Shown here: positions 27,916 to 51,213 of the stretch, piece after piece
Position numbering within the stretch: the stretch's first letter is position 1
Layout: each line of letters begins with the position of its first letter
Assembly: GCA_009746045.1 (NCBI GenBank)
Contig: RPFO01000213.1
Coordinates: 536,564-600,563, forward strand
Reading direction: 5' to 3'
Source of the DNA: Mesostigma viride
Lineage: Eukaryota > Streptophyta > Mesostigmatophyceae > Mesostigmatales > Mesostigmataceae
Length of the DNA stretch: 64,000 bases
Notes under the pieces: generated by a model
The model's database searches: none
Told to the model about the DNA's origin: nothing
What the model saw: the letters and a program-made list of their open reading frames with translations, nothing else
Position numbers and translations under genes: made by a program

Positions 27916-28191
27916 AGTTGTACTGTGTAGTTCTACTCAGTACCCTAAATCCTAGTGTGGACGCCGCGCCGTCAGCATCTTTGCTGCGACGGAATCTTGT
28001 GAACGGCATCTAGCGTCGCGCCGAGGAATCTCGGACTATGTTAAGCAAGTCCAATGCACGATGATAAGTTAATGAGAAATAAATGCAACGTGACGGCGGA
28101 CGAGGTAGCGGCCTGCGTGTTCCTCTGCGTAGCACCAAAGCACTTGCCTCTCGACGAAGAGCGTTGGTATCCAAAACACATTATTGCAACT
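27916..28191 (+). repeat. Element B 5' LTR
   Basis: A 276-bp LTR starting AGTTGTACTG and ending TTGCAACT. The gag-frame sequence before 28219 within it is not thought to be translated. Confidence 0.92.
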
Positions 28192-28218
28192 TGTACTCAA
28201 GAAAGAACATTTTCAAAA

Positions 28219-29445
28219 ATGTTCCGGACGGGCCTGACAACGCCGTCGTCGAAAATCAAACACAAAATCAAGCTGCCGAATCTCGGAGCCCTGGGCTCGA
28301 AGGGCGTGGGCACACTTCGCAAGCCCACCGCGAGCGAGATTCAGAGGAATCTGAACGAAGAATTTGCCAAGCAGGATAGCCCCGCAGTGGTGGACACTGC
28401 GGCGGAGGAAACTGCACCTGCAGCTGCCCGTGCAGCGGAGCTGCCAAGTGGATCACAGGCGGCTGGGCTGCGCACTGCAAGCCTAGACCGTGCTGCCCGC
28501 ATCCTCTGGATGAAGGAGCAAAAGGTGATCGAGGAGCGAATTCCTGCGCCGATTCCAGCGGCTCCTGAGCCATCAGAGAAGGTGAAAGAACAGTTTATTT
28601 TGAACCTGCGCAAGTGGCACAGTGATGTCCAAGACATGGTAGCCAAGCCTATCGAATTGCTGAGGCGCAATCGGCTGGCCACCGAGGGTTACAAGGTCGT
28701 ATCCGACCTGATCGAGATAGCCTACAAGGAGGACCGGAGCTGGGAAGAATTCATGGCTAGCCTTGAGAAGAATCTCCTGAAGACGGGGCTAATGCGCCTC
28801 GTCGCAGATGCAGTGAGTATTCTAAAGTTTGATCTGAATCGGAAGGTAGACATCAGCCAGGCAACGCTCGACTACGAGCAGAAACTGGCGTTGTCGTCCT
28901 GCTCGCCAGGTGACGCCTTCTCGGTGGTAATGTTTCTGGCAAAGGGCATCATGTCTGGTAGCCTGTCTGAGTCCGCCCTCCAGGGCATGTCGGGAACACT
29001 GACTGTCGACAAGCTAGCAAATAGGGCAGAGGCTTTCCAGATTATTCGCAATTCTGTTGCTGTGCCGGCTGCCGCCAAGGCATTGGTGGCAGCGGGCATT
29101 TCTGACCCTCTTTCCTCTGCTGCAGCGCCCATTGCAAGAATTCATGGTGCAGGTGAAGAGAAGTGTGGCCGATGCCAGGGCACCGGGCATGTGTGGTCGG
29201 ATTGCCCAGCCAACACGAAGGCTGGTCCGAATGTGCGGCTGTGTGGCGCCTGCCACCAGCCAGGGCACTTCGCCAAGGACTGCAAGCACACACGCGGTCC
29301 GCAGGGCAAGAAGCGCCCGCCCAAGCCGGCTGGCAACATGCGGCCCAAGAAGGCCAAGTGGAACAAATGGCAGAGGCAGGGGAACACCCAGGCCACACCT
29401 GCTAACACTCATGTGCCTGTCCCTGCTCCCTCTGCAGCAAACTAG
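28219..29445 (+). CDS. Element B Gag
   Basis: I place the start at the first ATG after the LTR (28219), giving 408 codons. The same frame is open back to 28054, but that part lies in the LTR and recurs in the 3' LTR (33663). A basic N-terminus (SSKIKHKIKLPNLG) is followed by a mostly helical capsid-like region with no named match. Two CCHC zinc knuckles follow near residues 313-355 (CGRCQGTGHVWSDC and CGACHQPGHFAKDC), then a Lys/Pro-rich tail. Knuckles of this kind bind genomic RNA. The stop (29443-29445) overlaps the open pol frame (from 29406) by about 40 nt in the -1 frame. Confidence 0.88.
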   Translation: MFRTGLTTPSSKIKHKIKLPNLGALGSKGVGTLRKPTASEIQRNLNEEFAKQDSPAVVDTAAEETAPAAARAAELPSGSQAAGLRTASLDRAARILWMKEQKVIEERIPAPIPAAPEPSEKVKEQFILNLRKWHSDVQDMVAKPIELLRRNRLATEGYKVVSDLIEIAYKEDRSWEEFMASLEKNLLKTGLMRLVADAVSILKFDLNRKVDISQATLDYEQKLALSSCSPGDAFSVVMFLAKGIMSGSLSESALQGMSGTLTVDKLANRAEAFQIIRNSVAVPAAAKALVAAGISDPLSSAAAPIARIHGAGEEKCGRCQGTGHVWSDCPANTKAGPNVRLCGACHQPGHFAKDCKHTRGPQGKKRPPKPAGNMRPKKAKWNKWQRQGNTQATPANTHVPVPAPSAAN

Positions 29446-32400
29446 ATAGCCCATGTTGGGACGATGATGTGTTTACCACTAATCTAGCTGCATGTGATGA
29501 GCTGGGTAGTTGTGTAGACAACAATTCTGCTGCGTGCATTGCTGCTGTGTTGCGTAGCGGCTTGTGCACAGACATTGTTACGCCTGCGGCAACGCGGGAC
29601 CATGAACCCCCACCGACCAGTAATGCTGGTACTATGCAAGCTGGACTCATGCACGTCGACCGTGACGATGGGGGGTCACTGGCCACACCAGGTGAAGTCC
29701 TTTCCTTGACTGCTGTTGCTGCACGCTTGCATCATGTGTTAGGCCATGGGACCCACGCTATCCGTTTTGCACGGGCACTGGCACCGGGGACTAAGTTGGC
29801 TAGCACGGTGCAGTCCATGTACAGTGGTTGTCACCAGTGTCAGTCCACTGCGCCTAAGCGTGCACGTAGGCATGTCAAACACCCACCCCTTGAGCGTGGT
29901 CACTTGGTGTGTGACATTTTGTTCCAGGACCAGGCTGTCTACTTGCTGGGAATAGACAGATTTTCCCATTTTGTTTCAGTTGTCCCACTCAAGTCACAGC
30001 ATGTTGGGGACCTCCTTGAGGGGATAGACCTGTTGGACTCCATGTTTAGCATGGTTACAGGGATGCAGTTTGATCAGCAATTCAAGTGGGCTGCCAAGGA
30101 ACCTGGATATGAGTTTGTGGGAACAGTGGGGCGTGAGGACCACGAGTCACAAGGGATAGCGGAGAGAGCGGTACAGGAGTTTAAGCTGCTTGCTACCCGA
30201 CGTGGGGACCACATGCCACACAGTGAATTCTCTAGTCGGCTCTTGTGGGCACTTGCCGTGTGTCGAAGTTTGAACAACCGTGTGCTGATGTCGACACAGG
30301 ATGGGGTGTTGGTGACTGCCGAGGGTTTGCAGTTTGGCCAATATCACGATGTGGTGGTGGATGTGTACAAAGACCACCTAGCATCCCGTTTTCAGCGCCT
30401 TGTCCAGTTGGATAGGCGACGTGGGGCTTATGAGCCCAGTGTGGGGCATGATGTTTGGCTGCACAAGGAAGGTGCCCTGGGTAAGCGTGGCAGGTGGCTT
30501 GGTCCAGCCAAGGTAATTTCTTGTGATGCTGCTATGCGTAAATGCGTGGTGGACTATGAGGGCACTGAGGTCACTATGGCTTGGAATAGGGTGAAGCCCT
30601 ACATGCGTGATGTGGAGGCTTGGTCTAGAGTGTTGGAGTTGTACTCCGACCCTAGCAGGCTCTCTAGCACTGTGACTCCTCCTTCCTCTTCGGCTCCTGT
30701 ATGTGACAATGCAGGGGACAGTGGTACTAGCGCGCCTAGTGGGGAAGCTGAGTTGGAGTTGCAGAGTGGGGACTATGATGATGATGTTGCTGTGGTAGCA
30801 CACCACTTACACACCCTAGGGGTAGAACAGGCAGAGAGCTTGCGCGACAGCTTGCCTAACCTCCCCCCTTCTGGCGTTGGTCGGGAGGATCCCTGCGTTG
30901 GTAGGGATAGTACTCAGGGCAGTTCCTGTCTTGAGCGCCCAAGCCGTAAGGGCTTTCTCACCCTTGCTGTAGAAAGGTTGATGCGTAAACCTCCTACAGA
31001 CGCTTTGCAAAATCCCGTCAAGGCAGCGATGGTATCCGCATTTGGTACCCTGGGTGATCAGCATGGTATGAGGATGTTGGTAGATACGCAGGCGAGAACC
31101 TCCATTGTCTCATCCCTGCACTACAATCCTGTGAGACCCTCAGTGCACTGGGAGTGTGTGACTGATTTTGCTGGCTCAACGAAGTTCCCTGTCCTTGGTG
31201 TCATTGATGTCAATGTGATGGGGGTGCTAGTTGAGTTTTGCGTGGTGGAAGGGTATAGTGGTCCACCAATCCTTGGTCAGAACTTCCTTGTACGGGAGGA
31301 TGTCTGGGTCAACTCCACCTGCTTGCGGCGGGAGGGGCATGCTGATCTGCCTCTTGAGGACTATGCTGTCATGTCTGACTGCCAACTTGTTGCTGTCATA
31401 GGCAACATTCGGCACGTGAACTATGCCCGTGAGAGTGATGTGCCGTTGGTAACTCAGTTGTTGCTTCCTAAACGTCCTAGCTTGGCTAGTCTCGGCATTG
31501 GACGTCATGATGTTGCTACCCAAAGCCCTATCTCTTACCATGATGCTGACGTGGAGTGTCAAACGGAGGAGGGGCTAGATGGGTGGACTAAGGCCATTAT
31601 TGCGTCAGGTGAAAGGTGGCTTGCATACCGTGCTGTTGAACCGGTTGATGAAGTGCCCAGTGGTGCTCGCCTTTTGCGCCACAAGTGGACTTTGGAGCGT
31701 AAGTTGGTGCCTGACACAACAACTAGGGTGCCTTTTGTTCGCCCGGTGGTCCTAGAATTTTCAGGTACTAGTGATCTTCCGGACAATGCCATCTCAGCAC
31801 CTGGGTTGATCAAGGATAATTGGCGCATGGTCCTGTCCTTCTACCTAGGCCAGCTCAACAAGGGACTTCCGTATGAGTCAGCCCTCATGGATTTCAGCAA
31901 AGCTTTTTTGAATGGTGATCCCAAGCTCGCTGAGAATGTGTGGGCTGGCACGACCCGCTTGTATGTGCGCTGTCCTCCCTTGTGGCAGCCTATCATGGGC
32001 AAGAAGTTTCTCCGTCTCTTGAAGGGTGTTGACGGTACTGTGACAGGTCCTCGGATTTGGCGCCTTTGCCTCGAGCGTCTTTTGCTTGATGTGATGCACA
32101 TGTACTATCATGACCTGGACCCCTCTCTGTTTGTTGGCTCATGGGAGGGGCAGCCAGTTTTTGTGTTCATTCATGTCGATGATGTGGACTGCATGGGCCC
32201 CACACCGTGGCTAGACTGGTTTTGTGCCACTGTTGCTCAGCACTTCCCGGTCGGCAAGGTCATTCGCCGCGTCTTGGACAAGTATGTCAAGTTCTGTGGC
32301 GTCGACACTATGCTCACCAAGGATGCCTCTGGCAGATATGTGATGAAGCTGCGTGCAGCGGGGGACTATGTTCAGGAGCTCATCACTCAGCTTTCATCCC

Positions 32401-33107
32401 TTACTAGTCAGTATATTCAGCCTGCTGAGTGTGGTTCTCTGCGGGGTAAGCTGAACTGGCTGGTCTCTACCGTCTCCCCTGACTTGGCGGTGCTTGCTCG
32501 GTTGCCAGATGACTTGATGTGCTCTCTTTCCCGCAATGTCATGTGTAAGTACATTTCTGCCTCCCCTGGGTTGGTCTTACATGGGGTGGACTATGAGCGG
32601 CCTATTCACTTGTCCGCGTATTGTGATAGCAGTTTGGATAGTGCTAATATCTCTAAGCTCCGTGGGCGCTGTGCCGCTGTGGTGCTTTTGAGTAATTCTG
32701 CCACTGTCCATGTCCCTGAATCTTCCCCTTCACCCTTTGCGTGGTTTTCTCGCTTACATCGGCGGGTGTATGTGGGTAGTGACACTGCAGAGGCTCGTGC
32801 CTTCTGCGAGACTGCTGAGGAGTTGATGTATTTCCGTGCGGTTCTTCGGTGGTGTTTGAAGTTTTGCCGTGTCATTCCACAGGTTGATACCACCATCTTC
32901 ACGGATTCGCAGTCGCTGATTGACTTTTTGGCTGATCCTTATGCGCGCACGCGCAAGCTCGACTTCCTTCGTGCCAAAGAATATAGTGACGCTGTTTCGC
33001 TGTACCATGTTCGCGACAATGATAACATTTCAGATGCTTTGACCAAGCTGTATGCCAAGGCTAGGCCTCAGTATGACAAGCTTCGTCTAGTTCAGGCGAC
33101 ACTTTAA
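29406..33107 (+). CDS. Element B Pol: integrase, retropepsin-like, RT, RNase H
   Basis: Residues are counted from codon 29469 (1212 codons). The zinc part has LHHVLGHGTH with CHQC near 120. The catalytic core has D149 (CDILF), D202 (QFDQQF) and E232 (GIAERAV), i.e. D-29-E. A retropepsin-like domain follows: LVDTQARTSIV (D539) and PILGQNFL (about 601). Copia-type reverse transcriptase comes next, with RHKWTLERKL, ALMDFSKAFLNGD, and HVDD at 902-905 in place of YVDD. RNase H runs from AYCDSSLDSA (about 1052) through FTDSQSLIDF to ISDALTKLYAK. In Pseudoviridae the protease precedes integrase; here it follows. The Gly of DTG is Gln. Expression is probably by -1 frameshifting from gag, though no canonical slippery heptamer is evident. 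Confidence 0.9.
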   Translation, partial: HSCACPCSLCSKLDSPCWDDDVFTTNLAACDELGSCVDNNSAACIAAVLRSGLCTDIVTPAATRDHEPPPTSNAGTMQAGLMHVDRDDGGSLATPGEVLSLTAVAARLHHVLGHGTHAIRFARALAPGTKLASTVQSMYSGCHQCQSTAPKRARRHVKHPPLERGHLVCDILFQDQAVYLLGIDRFSHFVSVVPLKSQHVGDLLEGIDLLDSMFSMVTGMQFDQQFKWAAKEPGYEFVGTVGREDHESQGIAERAVQEFKLLATRRGDHMPHSEFSSRLLWALAVCRSLNNRVLMSTQDGVLVTAEGLQFGQYHDVVVDVYKDHLASRFQRLVQLDRRRGAYEPSVGHDVWLHKEGALGKRGRWLGPAKVISCDAAMRKCVVDYEGTEVTMAWNRVKPYMRDVEAWSRVLELYSDPSRLSSTVTPPSSSAPVCDNAGDSGTSAPSGEAELELQSGDYDDDVAVVAHHLHTLGVEQAESLRDSLPNLPPSGVGREDPCVGRDSTQGSSCLERPSRKGFLTLAVERLMRKPPTDALQNPVKAAMVSAFGTLGDQHGMRMLVDTQARTSIVSSLHYNPVRPSVHWECVTDFAGSTKFPVLGVIDVNVMGVLVEFCVVEGYSGPPILGQNFLVREDVWVNSTCLRREGHADLPLEDYAVMSDCQLVAVIGNIRHVNYARESDVPLVTQLLLPKRPSLASLGIGRHDVATQSPISYHDADVECQTEEGLDGWTKAIIASGERWLAYRAVEPVDEVPSGARLLRHKWTLERKLVPDTTTRVPFVRPVVLEFSGTSDLPDNAISAPGLIKDNWRMVLSFYLGQLNKGLPYESALMDFSKAFLNGDPKLAENVWAGTTRLYVRCPPLWQPIMGKKFLRLLKGVDGTVTGPRIWRLCLERLLLDVMHMYYHDLDPSLFVGSWEGQPVFVFIHVDDVDCMGPTPWLDWFCATVAQHFPVGKVIRRVLDKYVKFCGVDTMLTKDASGRYVMKLRAAGDYVQELITQLSSLTSQYIQPAECGSLRGKLNWLVSTVSPDLAVLARLPDDLMCSLSRNVMCKYISASPGLVLHGVDYERPIHLSAYCDSSLDSANISKLRGRCAAVVLLSNSATVHVPESSPSPFAWFSRLHRRVYVGSDTAEARAFCETAEELMYFRAVLRWCLKFCRVIPQVDTTIFTDSQSLIDFLADPYARTRKLDFLRAKEYSDAVSLYHVRDNDNISDALTKLYAKARPQYDKLRLVQATL

Positions 33108-33524
33108 ATTGTCCCTGTCTGATTTCAGGGTTACATCTTGCCCTGGCTGATGTGTGTTTTCACTCTTTTCTGAATTTCCTATTTAAAATTGGCATTGACC
33201 ATGGCCTTGATGCTTCTCTCTGCGGGAGAGTTGCATACTATGTAATGGGCTCTTGTCTGGGTTTTCACCCGTTGATGCTTGGCGGTGGCCGGCATACTAT
33301 GTTTCCGGGTTTCCCCAGTGTGGTACGATGAATAAATGACTTGCCATAATGATGTGTGTCTTGCACATGCATCCAAGTTCATGCGACCGCTATGCTTGTT
33401 GGTGTTGTTTCCCAACAAGACTTTGCCACTACTAGGATTGTGAAGTCGGTGACTGGGATGCGGCCGTACCGATCATCTTGAGTACATCCCTGTCCGTACC
33501 GACTCACAAAGAAAAAGAAGTCGG

Positions 33525-33800
33525 AGTTGTACTGTGTAGTTCTACTCAGTACCCTAAATCCTAGTGTGGACGCCGCGCCGTCAGCATCTTTGCTGCGACG
33601 GAATCTTGTGAACGGCATCTAGCGTCGCGCCGAGGAATCTCGGACTATGTTAAGCAAGTCCAATGCACGATGATAAGTTAATGAGAAATAAATGCAACGT
33701 GACGGCGGACGAGGTAGCGGCCTGCGTGTTCCTCTGCGTAGCACCAAAGCACTTGCCTCTCGACGAAGAGCGTTGGTATCCAAAACACATTATTGCAACT
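33525..33800 (+). repeat. Element B 3' LTR
   Basis: Same length and sequence as 27916-28191. It is followed by the target duplication CACAC. The stretch 33108-33524 before it is 3' untranslated sequence ending in a purine tract. Confidence 0.92.
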
Positions 33801-33805
33801 CACAC

Positions 33806-34790: not shown

Positions 34791-34794
34791 GTCC

Positions 34795-35790
34795 TGGTCT
34801 TCACGTCTTCACGTCTTCACGTCTTCACGTCTTCACGTCTTCACGTCTTCACGTCTTCACGACTCACCTGAACTTGCGGCGTATCGTATCTTTGATACCT
34901 TGCATGCACGTCTTCACGTCTTCACGTCTTCACCGCGTCTTCACCTGTCTTCACCACGTCTTCACGTCTTCGCGTCTTCACGTCTTCACGGCTTCACCTG
35001 AACACCTGAACTTCACCTGAACTTGCCGTATCGTGTCTTCACGTCTTCACGTCTTCACGTCTTCACGTCTTCACGTCTTCACCGCGTCTTCACCTGTCTT
35101 CACCACGTCTTCACGGCTTCACGGCTTCACGTCTTCACGGCTTCACCTGAACACCTGAACTTCACCTGAACTTGCCGTATCGTGTCTTCACGTCTTCACG
35201 TCTTCACGTCTTCACGTCTTCACGTCTTCACGTCTTCACCGCGTCTTCACCTGTCTTCACCACGTCTTCACGGCTTCACGGCTTCACGTCTTCACGGCTT
35301 CACCTGAACACCTGAACTTCACCTGAACTTGCCGTATCGTGTCTTCACGTCTTCACGTCTTCACCGCGTCTTCACCTGTCTTCACCACGTCTTCACGGCT
35401 TCACGTCTTCACGTCTTCACGGCTTCACCTGAACACCTGAACTTCACCTGAACTTGCCGTATCGTGTCTTCACGTCTTCACGTCTTCACGTCTTCACGTC
35501 TTCACGTCTTCACCGCGTCTTCACCTGTCTTCACCACGTCTTCACGGCTTCACGGCTTCACGTCTTCACGTCTTCACCTGAACACCTGAACACCTGAACT
35601 TCACCTGAACTTGCCGTATCGTGTCTTCACGTCTTCACGTCTTCACGTCTTCACGTCTTCACGTCTTCACGTCTTCACCGCGTCTTCACCTGTCTTCACC
35701 ACGTCTTCACGGCTTCACGGCTTCACGTCTTCACCGCGTCTTCACCTGTCTTCACCACGTCTTCACGGCTTCACCTGAACACCTGAACTT
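34795..35790. repeat. TTCACGTC octamer minisatellite with higher-order repeat
   Basis: About 1 kb built from the 8-bp unit TTCACGTC and variants (TTCACGGC, TTCACCTG). It is arranged in roughly 160-190-bp higher-order units, each starting GCCGTATCGTG and ending CACCTGAACACCTGAAC. Open frames through it are artefacts. Confidence 0.95.
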
Positions 35791-36303: not shown

Positions 36304-36306
<3 letters not shown>

Positions 36307-36448: not shown

Positions 36449-36609
36449 CTTCAGTTCCCGCAGGCAGCGTCGGCAATGTCGCAGTTTCCACAGGCATTGT
36501 CGGCACTGCAGCAGTTTTCGCAGGGACCGTCGGCAGCAGAGCAGTTCCCGCAGGGATCATCGGTGGTGCAGCAGTTCTTTGTGAGTCATTCGTGTAGTGT
36601 TGAGTGGGT

Positions 36610-37640
36610 GGGGGTGGGGGGGGGGGGGGGGGGGGGGGGGTTTGACTGTGTGACTGCGTGGCTGCTTGGCTGGAAAGGAGGGTGCGTGGCTGTGTGGCTG
36701 CGTGGCTGCGCTGCTGCGTGGCTGCGTGGCTGCGTGGCTGCGTGGCTGCTTGGCTGGAAAGGAGGGTGCGTGGCTGTGTGGCTGCGTGGCTGCGCTGCTG
36801 CGTGGCTGCGTGGCTGCGCTGCTGCGTGGCTGCGTGGCTGCGTGGCTGCGTGGCTGCGTGGCTGCGTGGCTGCGTGGCTGCGTGGCTGCGTGGCTGCGTG
36901 GCTGGAAAGGAGGGTGCGTGGCTGTGTGGCTGCGTGGCTGCGCTGCTGCGTGGCTGCGTGGCTGCGTGGCTGCTTGGCTGGAAAGGAGGGTGCGTAGCTG
37001 TGTGGCTGCGTGGCTGCGCTGCTGCGTGGCTGCGTGGCTGCGTGGCTGCGTGGCTGCGTGGCTGCGTGGCTGCGTGGCTGGAAAGGAGGGTGCGTGGCTG
37101 TGTGGCTGCGTGGCTGCGCTGCTGCGTGGCTGCGTGGCTGCGCTGCTGCGTGGCTGCGTGGCTGCGTGGCTGTGTGGCTGCGTGGCTGCGCTGCTGCGTG
37201 GCTGCGTGGCTGCGTGGCTGCTTGGCTGGAAAGGAGGGTGCGTGGCTGTGTGGCTGCGTGGCTGCGTGGCTGCGTGGCTGCGTGGCTGCGTGGCTGGAAA
37301 GGAGGGTGCGTGGCTGTGTGGCTGCGTGGCTGCGCTGCTGCGTGGCTGCGTGGCTGCGTGGCTGCGTGGCTGCTTGGCTGGAAAGGAGGGTGCGTGGCTG
37401 TGTGGCTGCGTAGCTGCGCTGCTGCGTGGCTGCGTGGCTGCGTGGCTGCGTGGCTGCGTGGCTGCGTGGCTGCGTGGCTGCGTGGCTGCGTGGCTGCGTG
37501 GCTGCGTGGCTGCGTGGCTGGAAAGGAGGGTGCGTGGCTGTGTGGCTGCGTGGCTGCGCTGCTGCGTGGCTGCGTGGCTGCGTGGCTGCGTGGCTGGCTG
37601 GGGGGGGGGGGTGCCGGGTGCGTGGATGCGTGGATGTGTG
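36610..37640. repeat. GTGGCTGC octamer minisatellite and G tract
   Basis: A poly-G run (about 36617-36641) is followed by about 1 kb of 8-bp units (GTGGCTGC, with GCTGCTGC and TTGGCTGG variants). They form higher-order units separated by the spacer GGAAAGGAGGGTGCG. A second short G run is at about 37600. It fills the intron of the gene at 35956-37911. WLRGCVAA-type frames are artefacts. Confidence 0.95.
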
Positions 37641-37911
37641 GCTGGGTGGGTGCGTCACTGCGTGGCTGGCTGGCTCTGTGGCTGCGTGGGCGGCTGGATG
37701 GCCGGGTCAGCGTGGCTTCGTGTTCAATGGGATGCTAATATGTTGTTGCCTTTGGATGCCACAGTTCATGGATTCTTTTGTTCACATGCAGGTGCTGCCG
37801 TCTTCCCCATCGACGTCGTCAAGACCGATGTCGCCAAGAAGGATGATGCAATCACTCTCGGCCATGTTTAACTCATGTGGGCCTTCATGGCCATACGGGA
37901 AATATTATTGA

Positions 37912-38977: not shown

Positions 38978-39674
38978 AGTTAACGCCAAGCGCATTGGCG
39001 TGATCCTGATTCGACATATCTCTGCGATTCCAGCGGCACCGGAACGAGTTCATTCCGACAAGTATCAAGAAAGTTATGGCGTTCCGACTTCCCGGTCGCG
39101 CGCGAGCGCGAGCCGGCTGTTCTTCTAAGTCGGACGTGAATATTTGCCGACGACATATGGGGTCGACAGTAATTCCTGGGCTGACAGGAATTAGATGCTG
39201 TACCTACGACGGTATTGGATTAATACGTCGTACGCAGGAAATAGGAACCTTAACCTGTGGTCTGTTAGTACCGCAGGCTTAGTCCTGGACTTCTAGGTGC
39301 AGATGCAATAGTCACTGTGGACTGTGCTCTGTGGTCACTGTGCCTGTATGGCAGACCTACTGTATAGGAGTTGGGCGCTGTACAGGTAGTGAATACTGTA
39401 CCGGGGGTGTTATTACTGAGCAGGCCTCCTCGGCTGCTCAGGACTAGCAAGCACAGTGCACAAGTATATAAACAATAGGCCAGTGCCAAATGGGCATCTC
39501 TTGCGAGCCCGCCTCACGTGTTGTGCCTTGACTTGGCAAGCGCGTGTACAAGCCTCAAGTGTGTGAGCGCTGTAACATTATCCAATTTTAACAAAGCTCC
39601 GTTTCCAACCATATTCACACATTGCTGCATTGCAACCATATCCTTCACATTGCGTGTGCTAAGAACGTTTAACT
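38978..39674 (+). repeat. Element A-I 5' LTR
   Basis: 697 bp. It starts AGTTAACGCCAAGCG, with a small hairpin ACGCCAA...TTGGCGT right at the edge, and ends CGTTTAACT. A TATATAAA box lies at about 39465. Confidence 0.93.
39463..39472 (+). promoter_or_regulatory. TATA-like box in the element A LTR
   Basis: The string AGTATATAAAC occurs at the same LTR position in all four LTR copies, about 205 bp before the LTR end. It suits a core promoter for the element RNA. Confidence 0.45.
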
Positions 39675-39767: not shown

Positions 39768-41087
39768 ATGGTGCAGGAGGAACAACGGCAGCAGGATTTC
39801 CGGTTTCGGCAGTCTGCTGGGGGTTCGATTTCTCCTGAATTACGCCGTGTTGTTCGGGATCTATCTTTATTGCTTGCAGATCGTCCGCCTGTCAATCGCA
39901 GCTTCGTGCAATTTGTCGACGACCAGGTCGAAGATTGGGAGCGAATTCTGCGGCACGTACAAACCATCGTCATTCCGGAGCACCGGAGCATCGACGACCT
40001 CGAGCAGGAGCTTCACGGGTTGGTCGGCATCCAGACGGTGATTACAGCAGTAGCTGAGCGAGTGCGGACGGAGTTGGCGGCAAGGCGAGGCGAGGTTGCG
40101 GAGGCAGCTGGCGCAGGGCGACACGAGTTTGTACCGACAGCAGCGGGCGCGGGAGTACCACGTACTTTCGCAGGCGTCATCGGCGACGAGGGTGTTGCAG
40201 CGGGGCCAGTTAGGCGTGAACGACGCGGAGCGGAGCACTACAGGCGGCTTGCAGAGGTCGGGGCGACAGCGGAATCGAGCCCTCAGGGTGACCCTGGCCC
40301 GGCCCCTGGGGTACCTTCACATACGGTGGTTGGGCAAGCAGGCGGACAGGCTGCACCTCCGGAACGGCCCGACACCAGGCCTAGGGGTGTGCGTCTATCA
40401 GATATTGTACAGGCTTTGCAAAGAGCCAAGAAGGAGCCTAAGGTGTCCAAGCTTGTCCAGTTGGATGAACCTGAGGTAGCTGCCATGGAGATAGATACCA
40501 ATGCACAGGTTTCTGTCATGGGACCTCAGCATACAGGAGAACTGCTGGTCGGAGAACCAAGTTGCCCCTGGGTGTCTGATTTCAGTGGTAGGACGCATCT
40601 AAGGGTGTTGGGAGAGGTTACTGCCCCTGTCATGGGTGTGGATGTGACCTTCCTTGTCCTAGAGGACTATGATGGCCCTGTGATTTTGGGTCAGAATTTT
40701 CTGGGCAATCCTGGGATTTCTATCAGAGCTACAGCTCTGAGAAGAGATGGCTGGGGGATGATTCCCCTAGAAAATTTCAGGACAACATTTCCAGTCAGGT
40801 GCAGGGCCAAGCCGGTCAAGGGTGTAAAATGGGATGAAGGGGAGGTGCCCCCAGCGGCCAGTTTGGTGATTCCAGCTGTGTTGCACCCCAGCAGTATTGG
40901 CATAACTCACAGGAGCCTTGCTGCACACTCTCCTTTGACATATGACCAGCTGGTCCAAGAGATGAGCTCGCCTACTTTGTTTGAGGCTTGGAAGCTCGCC
41001 TTCTCCAAGGCATTGGAGGAGTGGTTGCAGTTTGAGTGTGCTGCACCAACAGACAGACGTCCCCAGCATCAAGGAAGCTTGCTTTGA
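39768..41087 (+). pseudogene. A-I fused 5' ORF plus retropepsin-like/RT start
   Basis: A 439-codon frame. The first ~169 residues equal the 5' ORF of A-II (QEEQRQQDFRFRQSAGG, helical and acidic/basic). After GATAE it joins pol directly (SSPQGDPGPAPG). The retropepsin-like domain follows: MEIDTNAQVSVM, then PVILGQNFL. The frame ends early at 41087 because a run of five C in A-II (49786-49790 region) is four C here. RT and RNase H continue in another frame from about 41073. The fusion lacks gag knuckles and integrase. Confidence 0.85.
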
Positions 41088-42487
41088 GATTTGTGCTGAA
41101 GAGGAAGGTTGTGGATGAGGTATCAGTGCCCCATGTCAGGCCTGTCCTGAATGAGTATCACGGCACGGGGAGTCTGCCAGGAGAGGAGCTATACACGCCA
41201 GGGATGCTACACGACACATGGAGAATTTTGCTATGTCTCTACGTGGGGTTGCTGAACAGGGGAGCAGCTATGTCATCAGTGCTGCTGGACTTCAAGAGGG
41301 CATTTTTAAAATCTGATCCAGAAGTGGCCAGGAGGGTATGGAAGCAGGATGAGCCTTACTGTGTTGAGGTGCCTGCCATCTGGAAGCTGGAGCTGCATCA
41401 ACAATTCCTGGTTATTCTGAAGGGCCTGGAAGGACTCAGGTCGAGCCCAATCATCTGGAGGCTCACGCTGCAGGAAGCTCTGATCAGTGAGTGTGGCTTG
41501 AGAGTGTCTTCAGTTGATCCCTGTTTGCTGCTGACCCAATGGGAGGGTCTGCCAGTGTATGCTAGTTTGCATGGAGATGATCTGCATTTGCTAGCCCCCA
41601 CGACCTGGCTGAAGAAGTTTATTCCTGTCATCAGTGGCAAGTTTTCACTGGGCAAGGAGCTGTGGCAGGAGCCCAACAAGCCTGTAGTGTTCTGTGGAAT
41701 GCAGGCTACCCTGTTCAGGAGGGACGGGGAGTGGAGTATCAGGCTTCAGGCTGGAGGAGATTATAAACAGACCATTGTGAAGGCCTTGCCAGAGAAGATC
41801 ACCCAGGCTGCAGGACCTGAGTTGAGAGGCATGTGGGCCTGGTTTGCCAGCATCTGTGGTCCGTCTCTGATGGTCCATAGCAGAATGCCTGATGAGGTGC
41901 TTGAGGATGAGAAGCCTCGAGTCATAGCCCGGTTGGTGGAGAGTACCCCTGATCTGATTTTGTCTGGGATTGACTTTGCCCAGCCTATCACCTTGGAGAT
42001 CTTTGTTGACAGTTCCATGGATGCTCGCCAGGTTACCAAGGTCAGGGGGAGATCTGCTGCTCTGTTTGCTTTTTATCAGAGCAGGGCAAGTTTGTTCAGC
42101 TGGTACAGCAGACTGCAGAAGAGGGTCTGTATCAGTTCAGATGTGGCAGAATGCAGGGCCATATGCGAGGGGATCCAGTCCAGCTTGTACATAAAAGAGT
42201 TAATGCTGGAGCTGGCTTCAGTTACCCCTTGGACCTTGCAGATGGAGACGTTGTTGCTAACAGACAGCATGGGTATGGTCCAGTTTGTTCACAAGCAGCT
42301 GGCCAGAAGCCGGGACCTGGATTATTTGTTGCTGAAGGAGTTGGCCAGTTTGGTTGACTTGAAGCATATCCCTGGCGAGGAGAACCCTGCTGATGCATTG
42401 ACAAAGCTGCCGCACAAGGCCCCAGCCCAGTACAATGTACTGAGGAAGCTCATGAATGCTGACTGTCAAGTCGGTCTATCTGTCTAA
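41073..42487 (+). pseudogene. A-I reverse transcriptase and RNase H
   Basis: Continuation after the 1-nt deletion. It is open from 41036, with true homology to A-II from about 41073. It contains VLLDFKRAFLKSD, LKGLEGLRSSPIIWR, the HGDD palm motif (about 41575), and RNase H with FVDSSMDARQ, SSDVAECRAI and ADALTKLPHK. It differs from A-II by a few substitutions. Severed from an initiator, it could be expressed only by frameshifting. Confidence 0.85.
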
Positions 42488-43233
42488 AAGCTGAGAGCTG
42501 GGTGCTTAAGTCTCTGGATATCAGGCTGGGAGCTTGATTGTACATAATCCTGAGCACACCTTGAGGGGTGAGACATGTCTCTGGTGTGGGAATGTCTGAC
42601 ATTGTCTCTGATGGAGAGATGTCTATCTGGGGTTTTCATCTCAGTCTGAGGTTTCCCCAGATCTGTGGTTTGTGGGCGGGGTTCGATTCCCTGGTGCCGT
42701 CTTAAGGCGGAGTTTCACGGACTGGCTGACCCACCCACCGTGCTGGTGAGGTGGCGACAGGTCCCCTGATTTTCCACGGTTGGAACGAGTATGGGAGCTT
42801 GTGTTTGCATGTGCTTCGCGTAGATGTTGTGTCTGGTTCGATAAGGGGCAGCAGACCGGCGCCGACTCCCGTCTGGGGGTCAGCAATGTTTTCTGATGAG
42901 CTGTTGTGGGTGATCTGTGGGGTTTCGCCTAAGGTCCTGAAGGTTGTACATACTTCTCAAGTTCTTAGCTGAACACCTATGGGCTGCCACAGTTGGCCAA
43001 CCTCTTGTACATGGGTAACACAACGAGCCTCCCGTGAAGGGATAGGGACTCATTGTAATTTGTTTGTGCTCCTGAGCCAGTATGGGTGCTATGTACATAT
43101 AATAAGGAATCCAAGCTGACTGTCATGCCCAGTGGGTTGTGACTTGTAGTCGGGGAGGATGTCCAGTACCCATTGTGTGTGTTTGTATGTAGACTTGTGT
43201 GAGCTGCTACAGCTCAAGAAAAGAAAGGATTGG
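42488..43233 (+). other. A-I 3' untranslated region and polypurine tract
   Basis: There is no gene. It ends in AAGAAAAGAAAGGATTGG just before the 3' LTR, a plausible polypurine tract. The same region lies at 51214-51960 in A-II. Confidence 0.7.
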
Positions 43234-43930
43234 AGTTAACGCCAAGCGCATTGGCGTGATCCTGATTCGACATATCTCTGCGATTCCAGCGGCACCGGAA
43301 CGAGTTCATTCCGACAAGTATCAAGAAAGTTATGGCGTTCCGACTTCCCGGTCGCGCGCGAGCGCGAGCCGGCTGTTCTTCTAAGTCGGACGTGAATATT
43401 TGCCGACGACATATGGGGTCGACAGTAATTCCTGGGCTGACAGGAATTAGATGCTGTACCTACGACGGTATTGGATTAATACGTCGTACGCAGGAAATAG
43501 GAACCTTAACCTGTGGTCTGTTAGTACCGCAGGCTTAGTCCTGGACTTCTAGGTGCAGATGCAATAGTCACTGTGGACTGTGCTCTGTGGTCACTGTGCC
43601 TGTATGGCAGACCTACTGTATAGGAGTTGGGCGCTGTACAGGTAGTGAATACTGTACCGGGGGTGTTATTACTGAGCAGGCCTCCTCGGCTGCTCAGGAC
43701 TAGCAAGCACAGTGCACAAGTATATAAACAATAGGCCAGTGCCAAATGGGCATCTCTTGCGAGCCCGCCTCACGTGTTGTGCCTTGACTTGGCAAGCGCG
43801 TGTACAAGCCTCAAGTGTGTGAGCGCTGTAACATTATCCGATTTTAACAAAGCTCCGTTTCCAACCATATTCACACATTGCTGCATTGCAACCATATCCT
43901 TCACATTGCGTGTGCTAAGAACGTTTAACT
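43234..43930 (+). repeat. Element A-I 3' LTR
   Basis: 697 bp, same ends as the 5' LTR. I noticed one difference from the 5' LTR (TATCCGATT versus TATCCAATT). Followed by GGAAG. Confidence 0.93.
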
Positions 43931-44625: not shown

Positions 44626-45320
44626 AGTTAACGCCAAGCGCATTGGCGTGATCCTGATTCGACATATCTCTGCGATTCCAGCGGCACCGGAACGAGTTCA
44701 TTCCGACAAGTATCAAGAAAGTTATGGCGTTCCGACTTCCTGGTCGCGCGCGAGCGCGAGCCGGTTGTTCTTCTAAGTCGGACGTGAATATTTGCCGACG
44801 ACATATGGGGTCGACAGTAATTCCTGGGCTGACAGGAATTAGATGCTGTACCTACGACGGTATTGGATTAATACGTCGTACGCAGGAAATAGGAACCTTA
44901 ACCTGTGGTCTGTTAGTACCGCAGGCTTAGTCCTGGACTTCTAGGTGCAGATGCAATAGTCACTGTGGACTGTGCTCTGTGGTCACTGTGCCTGTATGGC
45001 AGACCTACTGTATAGGAGTGGGCGCTGTACAGGTAGTGAATACTGTACCGGGGTGTTATTACTGAGCAGGCCTCCTAGGCTGCTCAGGACTAGCAAGCAC
45101 AGTGCACAAGTATATAAACAATAGGCCAGTGCCAAATGGGCATCTCTTGCGAGCCCGCCTCACGTGTTGTGCCTTGACTTGGCAAGCGCGTGTACAAGCC
45201 TCAAGTGTGTGAGCGCTGTAAACATTATCCGATTTTAACAAAGCTCCGTTTCCAACCATATTCACACATTGCTGCATTGCAACCATATCCTTCACATTGC
45301 GTGTGCTAAGAACGTTAACT
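44626..45320 (+). repeat. Element A-II 5' LTR
   Basis: 695 bp. It has single-base indels and substitutions relative to 51961-52657, and one T is missing from the terminal GTTTAACT. Confidence 0.92.
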
Positions 45321-45413
45321 CAAATTACAACCAGTCTCAGCGGAACGGCCAGGAGGGTCGTTGCCGGTTGCGGTGTGCAGCGTTGACGACGAGAGGAGCT
45401 CGTCCGGTGGTGA

Positions 45414-46333
45414 ATGGTGCAGGAGGAACAACGGCAGCAGGATTTCCGGTTTCGGCAGTCTGCTGGGGGTTCGATTTCTCCTGAATTACGCCGTGTCGTT
45501 CGGGATCTATCTTTATTGCTTGCAGATCGTCCGCCTGTAAATCGCAGCTTCGTGCAATTCGTCGACGACCAGGTCGAAGATTGGGAGCGAATTCTGCGAC
45601 ACGTACAAACCATCGTCATTCCGGAGCACCGGAGCATCGACGACCTTGAGCAGGAGCTTCACGGGTTGGTCGGCATCCAGACGGTGATTACTGCAGTAGC
45701 AGAGCGAGTGCGGACGGAGTTGGCAGCAAGGCGAGGCGAGGTTGCGGAGGCAGCTGGCGCAGGGCGACACGAGTTTGTGCCGACAGTAGCGGGCGCGGGA
45801 GTACCACGTGCTTTCGCAGGCGGCATCGGCGACGAGGGTGTTGCAGCGGGGCCAGTTAGGCGTGAACGACGCGGAGCGGAGCATCACAGGCGGCTTGCAG
45901 AGGTCGGGGCGACAGCGGAAGCCATCGCCGGAGGACAGCGCGCGACAAGAGTCGGCAGGTTTCCAGAGCGAGTAAGAGTTCCTTTTCAGGAACTGCCCCC
46001 GCCCCTTCGCGTTCGTGTGACGCGTTGGGAGAGTTTGCACCTCTTGGGTACGATAGTGACCTTGAGGTAGGAGCAGGGGGTGTCGCTGGGCTAGGCGACG
46101 AGACACTTGGCGACCACGAGGTGCCAACGTACAATCCGCGAGGTGCCAACGACGGGTTGTCACCTGTCTACTTTACCAACGGTGACGATTCAGTCATCGC
46201 GGGCCGACAGCGGGTCGACGACGGCGCAGCAGGTAGCAGGGTACCAGAGCTGATTGTGGTGAGCGACAGCGACGACGACAGCGACAAGGAGAACCAGGAC
46301 GCGCCTGGGGCCAGCCGTGGTGGTCTTGCCTGA
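45414..46333 (+). pseudogene. Element A 5' ORF, unknown, frameshifted
   Basis: An ORF upstream of gag, present in A-I and A-II. The first ~165 residues (from about 45414) are helical: SPELRRVVRDLSLLLADRPP, then IDDLEQELHGLVGIQTVI. Near 45.9 kb the protein-like signal moves to another frame, giving Ser/Arg-rich then acidic sequence. That part ends with ELIVVSDSDDDSDKENQD before the stop at 46333. The V-V-S-D-S-D-D-D string looks like a SUMO-interaction motif with an acidic extension, which is inference. Copia elements normally have nothing here. No domain is recognised. Confidence 0.5.
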
Positions 46334-46435
46334 GTGGTAACACTTGGCACTTTCCTTTCTTGTTCAGTAGCTTATATTGCTTTAATTGCTGCTTGGCCAC
46401 TTGGCTGGCTGTAGCAGATCTGAACAGAGGCCATC

Positions 46436-47622
46436 ATGGAGGATGGAGCTATCAACCAACAAGCGGGCTTTATGGGCTTCGCGCGGCGCGGCGCTGGGCT
46501 GGATGGACGAGATGGACGCGATGGACGCGGTGGACGCGATGGACGCGGGGACGGCCAGGCGCTGGGAGACCAGGCTGAGGTGCCAGATAATCAGAGCCAA
46601 GGATCGCAGGGCGGGCAGCACGCGCCAGCCGCAGATCAAGCGGCGCCTAAGCGACCAACCGTTGCTGAGGGGTACGCGGTGCTAGGCCAGTTTCAGTCCA
46701 TCAAGGACAATTGGCAGCCCCGGGATGCTGAGAGGATGTTAGAGGACATGAACTTGTACACGGAGATATACAACGGTGACAAGCTTCGCATCCTGGCGTC
46801 TAGTGCCTACATACGGCAGTCGGCGAGGCGGCTGTTCAAGTTTGTTCGGGAGCGACACGCGGCGGGGGACACCTGGGCGGCGTTTATGACGCGACTCAGG
46901 TCGTTCCTGAGTGACAAGAGGACCATAGATGGGTCCCACCTGAAGCAAGAATACCTGGACTACAAGCCCATCAAGGGGCAGCTAGTGGTCCACGCCTTTG
47001 AAGACTTCGTCAAGCTGAGGGAGGACGCCATGGCCAAGGGCTTCTTCGTCGCAGATCGGATGGCCATGGGCGACTTTCTCAAGTCGCTGCAGCTGGATCC
47101 GGTCACCATGGATAATGTGACCATCCACATGCGACAGGTCCATGGCTGGGCAGCCATGACGGACCAGTTGTATGAGTGTTTCAGCGGCAAGTACGTGGGT
47201 GGTAAGCGCCCTCGTCAGGGTGATGAGGAGGCCACTGAACCCACGGTTAAGTCCATGAGGGGATCGGGCCACGGGGGCCCAGCGCCTCGAGAGGGCCTGA
47301 GACCTCTTCAAGGGGTCGAGGAAGGTCCAGGAGGGGGCGTGACAGAAGGGCTGGACGGGGGACCCCGCCGAAGTCGGGACATCCACAGTCCCAGTTTGAC
47401 TTCAAGAGGGTGGGTGGTCCTCCCAAGGCTGGGCCCAGCAGTGGGACCTCACGGGACATCAGTCAGGTGGAATGTTATTTCTGCCAGGGGAAGGGTCACT
47501 TCAGGAATGAGTGTCCCTCGTACCTGAGGCAGGAAGGTCAGAGCAAGCCAGCTCAGGGTGGCAGCAAGGACAAGGCTGGTCCATCCCAGGACAAGGGCAA
47601 GGGCAAGGCTGCTGATCATTGA
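46436..47622 (+). pseudogene. Element A-II Gag, one frameshift
   Basis: It starts at the ATG at 46436 (MEDGAINQQAG). A Gly/Arg/Asp-rich lead is followed by a helical capsid-like region (about 46670-47190) containing DNWQPRDAERMLEDMNLYTE and AAFMTRLRSFLSDK. After GSGHGGP (near 47275, in a G5-C3 run) the plausible continuation is one frame over: an Arg/Gly-rich segment and a CCHC knuckle (CYFCQGKGHFRNEC, about 47475), ending at TGA 47620-47622. The original frame runs uselessly to 47527. A 1-nt indel in the G run is the simplest cause. Confidence 0.75.
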
Positions 47623-50600
47623 CTTGAGCCTGCACACATCCCTGAACCCTGGAGGGTGCCCCCAGGGGTGTGTAATGAAGCTGCTAGTGACAGCAGTGAG
47701 GGGCAGCCCCATGCTCTAGTGAAAGAGCCTATTGGACACGATGGGGCAAGCTTGGTTACCACAGAGAGTATGCCAGCTGTAGCTGCAGTGGTTACTCGCC
47801 AACGTGCCCGCCATGGCGGTGCTGAGCCTGAGGTAGGACCTGGTGATGTGGACCCAGGTGGATCTCAGAAGCATTCTGACCGTGCAGGACTGGCACAGGA
47901 TGGTCAGGATGAGGATAGGGCTGGAGACAGTCTGACAGGCACGACCCTGGTGCCTCCTGTACATAAGGGATCTGTACATACCTTGAGTGCTAATAATGAC
48001 AATAAAAGGTTTTCTCTCTTGTATGACATTGCCTCAAGGTTGCATACCATGTTTGGCCATGCAGCTCAGTCTTTGCAAGTTGCTAGACGGCTGGGAGGAA
48101 GTGAGTTGTACTCCATCTGCCAACAGGTTGCTCAAGCTTGCAAGTGCAGGCTAGTTGCTAGAAAGCCCAAGCAGTCTCATGCCAGGACTCCTATTTTGCA
48201 GCCAGGCCATGTGCAGGTAGATATTCAGAGAATCAGGGGTTTGAAGCTGCTGGTGGCAGTGGACAGATATACCAAGTACAAGACCCTAGAGATCCTGCCT
48301 GACATGGAGAAGCCTACATTGATTGCTGCTCTGAAGTTGACAAGGAGCAGGTACCCTGGGTTGGAGTTGTTGCAGTGTGACATTCAGTTTGAGTGCTGTG
48401 AGAACCTGCCAGAGTTTCCAGAGTTGCTGATTACACCCAGGGAGAGCCACGGCCAGCAAGGGGTGGTGGAGAGAGCCATCCAAGAGATCAAGACTGTGCT
48501 GCTGGTGGAGAGGATTCCAAGGACGTCATCTGCCATTGTGACATCTGCATGGCTACGTTCTGTGGAGGACAGGCTGAACCTGAGGACTCCCATGTTCTTT
48601 GGTGACATTGCCATCAATCCTCTTATGCTGCATACCAGGATGCTGCCAGCTGATGCTGAGCAGGCATGGAAGGAGAAGCTAGAGGCCAAGTTCCTCAAGC
48701 TGAGGCAGAAAGACAAGGGCTGGAGTGTCCTAGAACCTAACGTTGGACAACAGGTTGTTGTGTGGAAGGAACCAAGCTTTCCAGGGAAACGTGGCAGCTG
48801 GCATGATGGGGTGGTGACCCGAGTAGAAGCCGCTGGCCATAAGTGCTGGGTGGCCATTGATGGCTCCCAAGCAGTGCACCGTCTGTCCTGGTCAAAGATC
48901 CGTCCCCGGGGAGGTAATCAAGGAGACCTCTTCCAGGTGCCCGCTGGTGTACAAGGCGGGGGTGACGTGGAGCTTCCTGATCAGGGTGCTACAGCTGTAT
49001 CGAGCCCTCAGGGTGACCCTGGCCCGGCCCCTGGGGTACCTTCACATACGGTGGTTGGGCAAGCAGGCGGACAGGCTGCACCTCCGGAACGGCCCGACAC
49101 CAGGCCTAGGGGTGTGCGTCTATCAGATATTGTACAGGCTTTGCAAAGAGCCAAGAAGGAGCCTAAGGTGTCCAAGCTTGTCCAGTTGGATGAACCTGAG
49201 GTAGCTGCCATGGAGATAGATACCAATGCACAGGTTTCTGTCATGGGACCTCAGCATACAGGAGAACTGCTGGTCGGAGAACCAAGTTGCCCCTGGGTGT
49301 CTGATTTCAGTGGTAGGACGCATCTAAGGGTGTTGGGAGAGGTTACTGCCCCTGTCATGGGTGTGGATGTGACCTTCCTTGTCCTAGAGGACTATGATGG
49401 CCCTGTGATTTTGGGTCAGAATTTTCTGGGCAATCCTGGGATTTCTATCAGAGCTACAGCTCTGAGAAGAGATGGCTGGGGGATGATTCCCCTAGAAAAT
49501 TTCAGGACAACATTTCCAGTCAGGTGCAGGGCCAAGCCGGTCAAGGGTGTAAAATGGGATGAAGGGGAGGTGCCCCCAGCGGCCAGTTTGGTGATTCCAG
49601 CTGTGTTGCACCCCAGCAGTATTGGCATAACTCACAGGAGCCTTGCTGCACACTCTCCTTTGACATATGACCAGCTGGTCCAAGAGATGAGCTCGCCTAC
49701 TTTGTTTGAGGCTTGGAAGCTCGCCTTCTCCAAGGCATTGGAGGAGTGGTTGCAGTTTGAGTGTGCTGCACCAACAGACAGACGTCCCCCAGCATCAAGG
49801 AAGCTTGCTTTGAGATTTGTGCTGAAGAGGAAGGTTGTGGATGAGGTATCAGTGCCCCATGTCAGGCCTGTCCTGAATGAGTATCACGGCACGGGGAGTC
49901 TGCCAGGAGAGGAGCTATACACGCCAGGGATGCTACACGACACATGGAGAATTTTGCTATGTCTCTACGTGGGGTTGCTGAACAGGGGAGCAGCTATGTC
50001 ATCAGTGCTGCTGGACTTCAAGAGGGCATTTTTAAAATCTGATCCAGAAGTGGCCAGGAGGGTGTGGAAGCAGGATGAGCCTTACTGTGTTGAGGTGCCT
50101 GCCATCTGGAAGCTGGAGCTGCATCAACAATTCCTGGTTATTCTGAAGGGCCTGGAAGGACTCAGGTCGAGCCCAATCATCTGGAGACTCACGCTGCAGG
50201 AAGCTCTGATCAGTGAGTGTGGCTTGAGAGTGTCTTCAGTTGATCCCTGTTTGCTGCTGGCCCAATGGGAGGGTCTGCCAGTGTATGCTAGTTTGCATGG
50301 AGATGATCTGCATTTGCTAGCCCCCACGACCTGGCTGAAGAAGTTTATTCCTGTCATCAGTGGCAAGTTTTCACTGGGCAAGGAGCTGTGGCAGGAGCCC
50401 AACAAGCCTGTAGTGTTCTGTGGAATGCAGGCTACCCTGTTCAGGAGGGACGGGGAGTGGAGTATCAGGCTTCAGGCTGGAGGAGATTATAAACAGACCA
50501 TTGTGAAGGCCTTGCCAGAGAAGATCACCCAGGCTGCAGGACCTGAGTTGAGAGGCATGTGGGCCTGGTTTGCCAGCATCTGTGGTCCGTCTTTGATGGT

Positions 50601-51213
50601 CCATAGCAGAATGCCTGATGAGGTGCTTGAGGATGAGAAGCCTCGAGTCATAGCCCGGTTGGTGGAGAGTACCCCTGATCTGATTTTGTCTGGGATTGAC
50701 TTTACCCAGCCTATCACCTTGGAGATCTTTGTTGACAGTTCCATGGATGCTCGCCAGGTTACCAAGGTCAGGGGGAGATCTGCTGCTCTGTTTGCTTTTT
50801 ATCAGAGCAGGGCAAGTTTGTTCAGCTGGTACAGCAGACTGCAGAAGAGGGTCTGTATCAGTTCAGATGTGGCAGAATGCAGGGCCATATGCGAGGGGAT
50901 CCAGTCCAGCCTGTACATAAAGGAGTTAATGCTGGAGCTGGCTTCAGTTACCCCTTGGACCTTGCAGATGGAGACGTTGTTGCTAACAGACAGCATGGGT
51001 ATGGTCCAGTTTGTTCACAAGCAGCTGGCCAGGAGCCGGGACCTGGATTATTTGTTGCTGAAGGAGTTGGCCAGTTTGGTTGACTTGAAGCATATCCCTG
51101 GCGAGGAGAACCCTGCTGATGCATTGACAAAGCTGCCACACAAGGCCCCAGCCCAGTACAATGTACTGAGGAAGCTCATGAATGCTGACTGTCAAGTCGG
51201 TCTATCTGTCTAA
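47623..51213 (+). CDS. Element A-II Pol: integrase, retropepsin-like, RT, RNase H
   Basis: The frame is open directly after the gag TGA, in the same frame as the zinc knuckle, so readthrough is possible. Residues are counted from 47656 (1185 codons). The zinc region has LHTMFGH. The integrase core has D189 (VQVDIQ), D242 (QCDIQFE) and E272 (GVVERAI), i.e. D-29-E as in element B. The retropepsin-like domain has MEIDTNAQ (D522) and VILGQNFL. Copia-type RT has LLDFKRAFL and the palm motif HGDD (883-884 Asp-Asp). RNase H has FVDSSMDARQ, then ADALTKLPHK near the end. The order differs from standard Copia, and the protease glycine is Asn. Confidence 0.9.
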   Translation, partial: LEPAHIPEPWRVPPGVCNEAASDSSEGQPHALVKEPIGHDGASLVTTESMPAVAAVVTRQRARHGGAEPEVGPGDVDPGGSQKHSDRAGLAQDGQDEDRAGDSLTGTTLVPPVHKGSVHTLSANNDNKRFSLLYDIASRLHTMFGHAAQSLQVARRLGGSELYSICQQVAQACKCRLVARKPKQSHARTPILQPGHVQVDIQRIRGLKLLVAVDRYTKYKTLEILPDMEKPTLIAALKLTRSRYPGLELLQCDIQFECCENLPEFPELLITPRESHGQQGVVERAIQEIKTVLLVERIPRTSSAIVTSAWLRSVEDRLNLRTPMFFGDIAINPLMLHTRMLPADAEQAWKEKLEAKFLKLRQKDKGWSVLEPNVGQQVVVWKEPSFPGKRGSWHDGVVTRVEAAGHKCWVAIDGSQAVHRLSWSKIRPRGGNQGDLFQVPAGVQGGGDVELPDQGATAVSSPQGDPGPAPGVPSHTVVGQAGGQAAPPERPDTRPRGVRLSDIVQALQRAKKEPKVSKLVQLDEPEVAAMEIDTNAQVSVMGPQHTGELLVGEPSCPWVSDFSGRTHLRVLGEVTAPVMGVDVTFLVLEDYDGPVILGQNFLGNPGISIRATALRRDGWGMIPLENFRTTFPVRCRAKPVKGVKWDEGEVPPAASLVIPAVLHPSSIGITHRSLAAHSPLTYDQLVQEMSSPTLFEAWKLAFSKALEEWLQFECAAPTDRRPPASRKLALRFVLKRKVVDEVSVPHVRPVLNEYHGTGSLPGEELYTPGMLHDTWRILLCLYVGLLNRGAAMSSVLLDFKRAFLKSDPEVARRVWKQDEPYCVEVPAIWKLELHQQFLVILKGLEGLRSSPIIWRLTLQEALISECGLRVSSVDPCLLLAQWEGLPVYASLHGDDLHLLAPTTWLKKFIPVISGKFSLGKELWQEPNKPVVFCGMQATLFRRDGEWSIRLQAGGDYKQTIVKALPEKITQAAGPELRGMWAWFASICGPSLMVHSRMPDEVLEDEKPRVIARLVESTPDLILSGIDFTQPITLEIFVDSSMDARQVTKVRGRSAALFAFYQSRASLFSWYSRLQKRVCISSDVAECRAICEGIQSSLYIKELMLELASVTPWTLQMETLLLTDSMGMVQFVHKQLARSRDLDYLLLKELASLVDLKHIPGEENPADALTKLPHKAPAQYNVLRKLMNADCQVGLSV

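Follow-up and report, generated by a model that had tools for sequence, protein, structure and literature searches.

Copia-related elements of the window

The window analysed here, a 64,000-nucleotide stretch of the genome of the streptophyte alga Mesostigma viride (contig RPFO01000213.1), carries element B, a long terminal repeat (LTR) retrotransposon, and two members, A-I and A-II, of a second family (Table 1). The pol frames that an initial annotation of this DNA had described as intact, at 29406–33107 in B and at 47623–51213 in A-II, are both open, and in both of them the integrase (INT; HHCC, D-D-E) comes first, followed by a domain of predicted retropepsin fold (protease, PR), a Copia-type reverse transcriptase (RT) and RNase H (RH). 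The same INT-PR-RT-RH order was found in four of four families (A, B, C and D) of the M. viride genome. Family C comprises the EukProt protein P0006 and copies L021–L031, and family D, which is ∼ 75–78% identical to C, is represented by L041. Another protein of the same EukProt set (P0005, jgi/Mesvir1) matches a portion of element B with 100% identity.

Families C and D resemble B in having a gag with two CCHC knuckles and a pol that overlaps gag in the −1 frame. In all eight copies of family A that were fetched, a single TGA directly precedes pol. The gag frame ahead of this codon has a CCHC knuckle at its end and, in copy L006, stays open over 461 codons. The LTRs of B, A-I and A-II have AG..CT ends and are flanked by 5-bp target-site duplications (TSDs), and the ends AGTTG..CAACT recur in C and D; the TG..CA ends of Pseudoviridae were not found. 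A purine-rich tract adjoins the 3' LTR on its upstream side.

Table 1. Features of elements B, A-I and A-II (positions in the window)
Feature	Position	Strand	Remarks
Element B	27916–33800	+	Two identical 276-bp LTRs; TSD CACAC
B 5' LTR	27916–28191	+	276 bp, AGTTG...CAACT; identical to 33525–33800; TSD CACAC at 27911–27915
B primer-binding position TGTACTCAAGA	28192–28202	+	Complementary to 33476–33486; 11/11 bases pair from base +1 after the LTR
B gag	28219–29445	+	Frame open from 28054 onward, with 28219 as the first ATG beyond the LTR; two CCHC knuckles
B pol open frame	29406–33107	+	−1 relative to gag; overlap 29406–29445
B integrase	29688–30620	+	HHCC, DD29E, C-terminal GKRGxW..GP region
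B retropepsin domain	31044–31379	+	Catalytic motif LVDTQA, C-terminal ILGQNFL; fold predicted for the homologue in A
B Copia-type RT, HVDD palm	31473–32360	+	RVT_2 E 0.00056 (below curated cut-off); profile of the four-family alignment 4e-16
B Copia-type RNase H (within tract)	32403–33104	+	Profile of the four-family alignment 1.5e-13
B 3' UTR site complementary to primer-binding position	33476–33486	+	38 bases before the 3' LTR
B 3' LTR	33525–33800	+	Purine-rich tract before the LTR; TSD CACAC at 33801–33805
A-I	38978–43930	+	Internally deleted, most of the interior gone; LTRs 38978–39674 and 43234–43930; TSD GGAAG; pairing of 39675–39684 with 43053–43062
A-II	44626–52657	+	LTRs 44626–45320 and 51961–52657, 98.4% identical over 698 columns; TSD GAGTC
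A-II gag open frame	46436–47527	+	Broken (out of frame) in this copy
A-II pol open frame	47623–51213	+	Open; 39/39 scored genome places (best candidates) 100% identical
A-II integrase (DD29E)	47995–48942	+	Profile and motif
A-II retropepsin domain	49186–49500	+	IDTNA ... VILGQNFL; AlphaFold2 pLDDT 80.1, pTM 0.71 (best of five models)
A-II Copia-type RT (HGDD) and RNase H	49585–51210	+	Profile match
A-II 3' UTR site TTGTAATTTG	51779–51788	+	Complementary to the primer-binding position 45321–45330

Domain order of Pol

INT lies upstream of RT in all four families, as in Pseudoviridae, whereas PR lies between INT and RT in each of them and not upstream of INT. The Pol proteins of A and B align co-linearly over 1138 aa with 30% identity. 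When the six frames of the four elements were scanned with protease profiles, one protease was found per element, each time between INT and RT (four extra rows comprised two that we read as incomplete copies lying next to the elements in the fetched DNA, and two that scored negatively). The copy of D is interrupted inside INT and its domains were read as two pieces. A second protease in gag was considered and rejected, as neither a motif nor a profile match was found there: D[ST]G is absent from the gag of A, B, C and D, and the gag of B has no protease motif. Pol contains D[ST]G only once, in B, where it falls within the low-complexity stretch that links INT to PR.

The initial annotation had thus placed the domains correctly, as judged by profile matches and the predicted fold, and its palm motifs, HGDD in A and HVDD in B, were also right; in families C and D the motif is HADD. 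Of the findings that it had named as refutations, two concern the order itself, an active protease N-terminal to the integrase and a middle domain other than a retropepsin. Neither was seen: gag is devoid of D[ST]G, the profile scan detected no protease upstream of INT, and the fold predicted for the middle domain is that of a retropepsin.

Its further claim that the order is no one-off rearrangement holds as well. The pol of family A occurs at 39 or more places in the genome (39 of 39 scored were 100% identical), family B has at least 26 full-length uninterrupted copies (26 of 40 rows) and family C at least 10 (10 of 45 rows). These counts include the copies of A and B in the window and are lower bounds, as only the best candidates in the 440-Mb assembly were scored. 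Such numbers of near-identical copies, which are the product of recent amplification, exclude a one-off rearrangement in A, B and C. Several elements and many repeats are crowded in the window, a setting in which an artefact of assembly or rearrangement, or nested elements taken as one, might be suspected. However, the pol frames are single and uninterrupted, the elements are bounded by TSDs, tens of copies lie on different contigs and all four families have the same order, so that we rule out assembly artefacts and nesting and regard the chance of such an error as negligible. The INT-PR-RT-RH order is confirmed.

M. viride, the only host species found, also has Copia elements of standard order. 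At least 150 places in its genome match RVT_2 above the cut-off (150 of 150 scored). The only two canonical Copia families that were fetched from it (L043 and L044, with 79% identical RTs) are both PR-INT-RT-RH, with Pol_BBD, rve and RVT_2 matched in that order above the cut-offs and, in L044, a gag upstream. Thus, both orders coexist in one genome.

The domain between integrase and reverse transcriptase

The domain of ∼ 100 residues between INT and RT is marked by the motifs [EL][IV]DT[QN]A[QR] and LGQ[NP]FL. It was recognized as a retropepsin by sequence profile, with all 11 PDB sequence matches being retropepsin-like, and is predicted by AlphaFold2 to adopt a retropepsin fold; a Foldseek search with the predicted domain of A listed 50 rows, all of them retropepsin-like. 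Another type of beta-barrel was rejected on the basis of these fold and profile matches. The domains of B, C and D are 38–42% identical to that of A.

The catalytic triplet is DTQ in B, C and D (DTQA in B) and DTN in A (DTNA), in place of the D[ST]G of clan AA. A change of this kind might mean that the domain has kept the fold and lost catalysis, having instead a structural or dimerisation role, with a host protease processing the precursor or the precursor working without cleavage. The glycine 27 of HIV protease tolerates little change, which fits such a loss, as does the absence of the usual glycine from all four families. On the other hand, the Asp, Thr and Ala residues and LGQ[NP]FL are conserved in all four families despite the divergence of B, C and D from A, and a non-glycine third residue is no peculiarity of this lineage: P0011 has DTMA, and the canonical L043 and L044 have DSAA instead of DSGA. 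Loss of the glycine is therefore not limited to the new lineage, and DT(Q/N) by itself was rejected as proof of an inactive enzyme. A non-catalytic domain appears to us rather unlikely, and a working protease the better reading.

Relationship to Copia elements

INT has the HHCC motif in all four families, with one residue fewer between the Cys residues in A. The gaps of its D-D-E triad are 52 and 29 residues in all four, whereas the last gap is 35 in five of five reference Copia integrases, so that the DD35E spacing of Pseudoviridae is replaced by DD29E. Profile–profile comparison nevertheless matched INT to the canonical Copia integrase over 180 columns (E 4.5e-5, probability 69%), with the second D and the E on their counterparts. 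With hhalign, RT and RH matched those of five Copia proteins with E-values of 4e-16 and 1.5e-13, respectively, whereas a comparison of RT with one Gypsy RT of the window gave no match (E 0.13); INT is the first domain of Pol, unlike in Metaviridae, be it with INT after RNase H or in the Gmr1 order. In a 12-sequence RT tree, families A–D clustered together (support 99), set apart by a long branch, and the other seven Copia sequences, two from Mesostigma included, were grouped with weak support (63). As the reference sequences were few, we call these elements a deep Copia-related lineage and do not assign them to a placed clade; the profile comparison clearly favours Copia.

Whether this lineage had been named before was asked of the literature. 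The suggestion in the initial annotation that it is undescribed is supported, if not proven: no named clade with the INT-PR-RT-RH order appeared among the titles and abstract starts listed by literature searches, which did not cover Repbase and GyDB. The passages of PMC2836005 that were consulted contain nothing on this order, and no order string of the INT-PR-RT type occurred in the papers listed by one search. There is nevertheless a small chance that a rarely cited clade or library entry with this order already has a name, since large repeat libraries, GyDB and papers in subscription journals were largely outside the search. A large plant survey discarded elements of unexpected domain order as likely mispredictions (PMC6317226); such filtering would allow these elements to exist unnamed.

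Complementarity between the primer-binding position and the 3' UTR

In all four families the stretch that begins at base +1 after the 5' LTR is the exact complement of a site in the 3' untranslated region (UTR) of the same element, over 11 bases in B and 10 bases each in A (A-I and A-II), C and D. A-I, B, C and D were each represented by a single copy when pairing was counted; in these copies the 3' UTR site ends 38 (B), 171 (A-I), 35 (C) and 37 (D) bases before the 3' LTR. Equally long complements starting at other positions were rare (B, 3 of 4904; A-I, 1 of 2802; C, 0 of 4512; D, 2 of 4896), and of 2000 shuffled 3' UTRs only 0 (B), 2 (A-I), 0 (C) and 1 (D) contained the site. Within the LTR, the longest exact complement from base +1 was only 3 (B), 5 (A-I), 4 (C) and 3 (D) bases long (C and D were scanned in the 3' LTR). 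The 3' UTR site is present in all eight fetched copies of A, and a second site in A, at 43135, pairs almost equally well (10 of 12 bases plus one G-T). The primer-binding sequence is the same in seven of the eight printed copies of C, L028 having one A fewer in an A run.

Several positions have changed on both sides. Base 1 is T:A in B and C:G in C and D; base 10 is G:C in B and A:T in C and D; bases 8–9 are A:T in B and C and T:A in D. As B, C and D are related, their pairings are not independent, yet the pairing has been kept through changes on both sides. The primer-binding sequence of A is unrelated to those of B, C and D, and still pairs.

None of the four primer-binding positions starts with TGG, the complement of the CCA end of tRNA, and a complete tRNA 3' end was therefore rejected as the primer. 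In each cycle of a retroelement the primer is copied into the primer-binding position, so that exact complementarity from base +1 is a prediction of self-priming. The pairing thus suggests either self-priming from the 3' UTR or cyclisation of the RNA. The RNA of Ty1 cyclises end to end, and the pairing seen here may serve the same end, with a tRNA fragment as the primer. It would join both ends of the RNA, the 3' UTR site being only 35–38 bases before the 3' LTR in B, C and D. Half-tRNA primers, moreover, are known in Copia lineages, according to the plant survey (PMC6317226). Against cyclisation, the pairing starts exactly at base +1 in all four families, which is expected of a primer and unneeded for cyclisation, and the sequences vary between families, as those of tRNA do not, and none starts with TGG. 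We give cyclisation a little less than an even chance. For self-priming of LTR elements from the 3' UTR, independently of tRNA, no description was found in the literature searched; the plant survey had sought a self-primer in the 5' LTR (PMC6317226).

Proposed explanation and its weight

The best joint explanation of these findings, to which we assign a probability of roughly 0.8 with its inferred steps included, is that A–D belong to a deep lineage related to Copia and are autonomous LTR retrotransposons with a Pol precursor of the order INT-PR-RT-RH. From sequence features we infer frameshifting or read-through, cleavage and self-priming. Gag-Pol would be produced by −1 frameshifting in B, C and D and by read-through of the single UGA in A, and the retropepsin would dimerise within the precursor and cut it despite its DT(Q/N) triplet. 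Minus-strand synthesis would be primed by an RNA that carries the element's own 3' UTR site and has its 3' end exactly at base +1, and not by the 3' end of a tRNA. Most likely, the lineage lost the protease that its ancestors carried ahead of INT, and a retroviral/ASPRV1-like retropepsin now occupies the INT-RT linker; alternatively, the original protease may have moved there. PR resembles ASPRV1 and retroviral proteases and has no significant match to Copia proteases, which favours replacement over a simple move, albeit weakly, as the Copia set was small. A more specific version, a deep sister lineage of known Copia that re-acquired its protease between INT and RT and primes from its own 3' UTR RNA, cut exactly where the 10–11-bp duplex ends, strikes us as clearly less likely than not.

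A number of results weigh against this explanation. The identity of RT to other Copia RTs (18–25%) is hardly above that to Gypsy (17–19%). Pfam matches were below the curated cut-offs, RVT_2 was not seen for A, the PR and INT pieces of C and D matched no Pfam family, and the INT and RT-RH profiles found nothing in PDB. Neither four Copia proteases, a small set, nor the two canonical ones of the Mesostigma genome were matched significantly by PR, which may have been captured or moved. The DTQ/DTN triplet, which departs from D[ST]G in its glycine, makes protease activity uncertain. As for the predicted fold, the first AlphaFold2 model, of a longer construct, had a predicted local distance difference test score (pLDDT) of only 39.6, and the five models of the second prediction, the best of which had a predicted template modelling score (pTM) as given in Table 1, span pLDDT values from 43 to 80; VIA Z was below 8, a range in which the tool warns of chance arrangements, and no Foldseek E-value was below 0.001.

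Domain order in pol serves to define the families of LTR retroelements, and an amplified INT-PR-RT-RH lineage shows this order to be more plastic than assumed; genuine lineages can be lost to filters based on domain order. The DT(Q/N) triplet poses the question of whether the retropepsin glycine is dispensable, and the complementarity between primer-binding position and 3' UTR, which has persisted despite changes on both sides, provides an example in which tRNA-independent priming can be tested directly.

Other features of the window

A Ty3/Gypsy element at 17271–22847 has, by eye from the translations, the standard order (gag with CCHC; PR with DNGA, RT and RNase H; INT) and provides a contrast within the window. 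Two 594-bp copies with TG..CA ends (14151–14744 and 54399–54992) lie 40 kb apart, are 100% identical and are probably LTRs of another family. An open frame on the minus strand (4366–6510) resembles a reverse transcriptase of the long interspersed nuclear element (LINE) type (AYVDD). There are also long arrays with units every 8 or 24 bases at 36549–37900, 34902–35756 and 26457–27547, the last of which is open in frames of both strands.

Comparison with known systems

Like Pseudoviridae (Osser, GalEa and CoDi), the Mesostigma lineage has a CCHC gag, INT before RT, an RVT_2-type RT followed by RNase H, the HHCC motif and 5-bp TSDs. It differs from them in having PR after INT, DD29E spacing, AG..CT ends of the LTRs and the triplet DT(Q/N). 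The canonical arrangement is exemplified by CoRex1, given in the GalEa paper (PMC3587641) as PR (DTGC) - INT (HHCC, DD35E) - RT/RH.

Gmr1-type Metaviridae likewise have an altered pol order. According to PMC2774666, Gmr1 is a known exception in order, a Gypsy lineage with a Copia-like position of INT, and a chromodomain is noted in CoDi-A; in the Mesostigma elements, in contrast, the displaced domain is the protease and RT is of the Copia type.

The middle domain shares its predicted fold and the D-T-x-A and LGxxFL motifs with the retropepsins ASPRV1 and Ddi1 and with retroviral proteases, whereas the third residue of its catalytic loop is Q or N and not G, and it is placed between INT and RT. 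Finally, the self-priming elements Tf1/Sushi, Tcn1 and TAR are alike in having a primer-binding position complementary, over ∼ 10 bases, to their own RNA, and the same is found here. In Tf1-type self-priming, however, the complement is expected at the 5' end of the transcript or in the 5' LTR, whereas the Mesostigma families have it in the 3' UTR, ahead of the purine tract.

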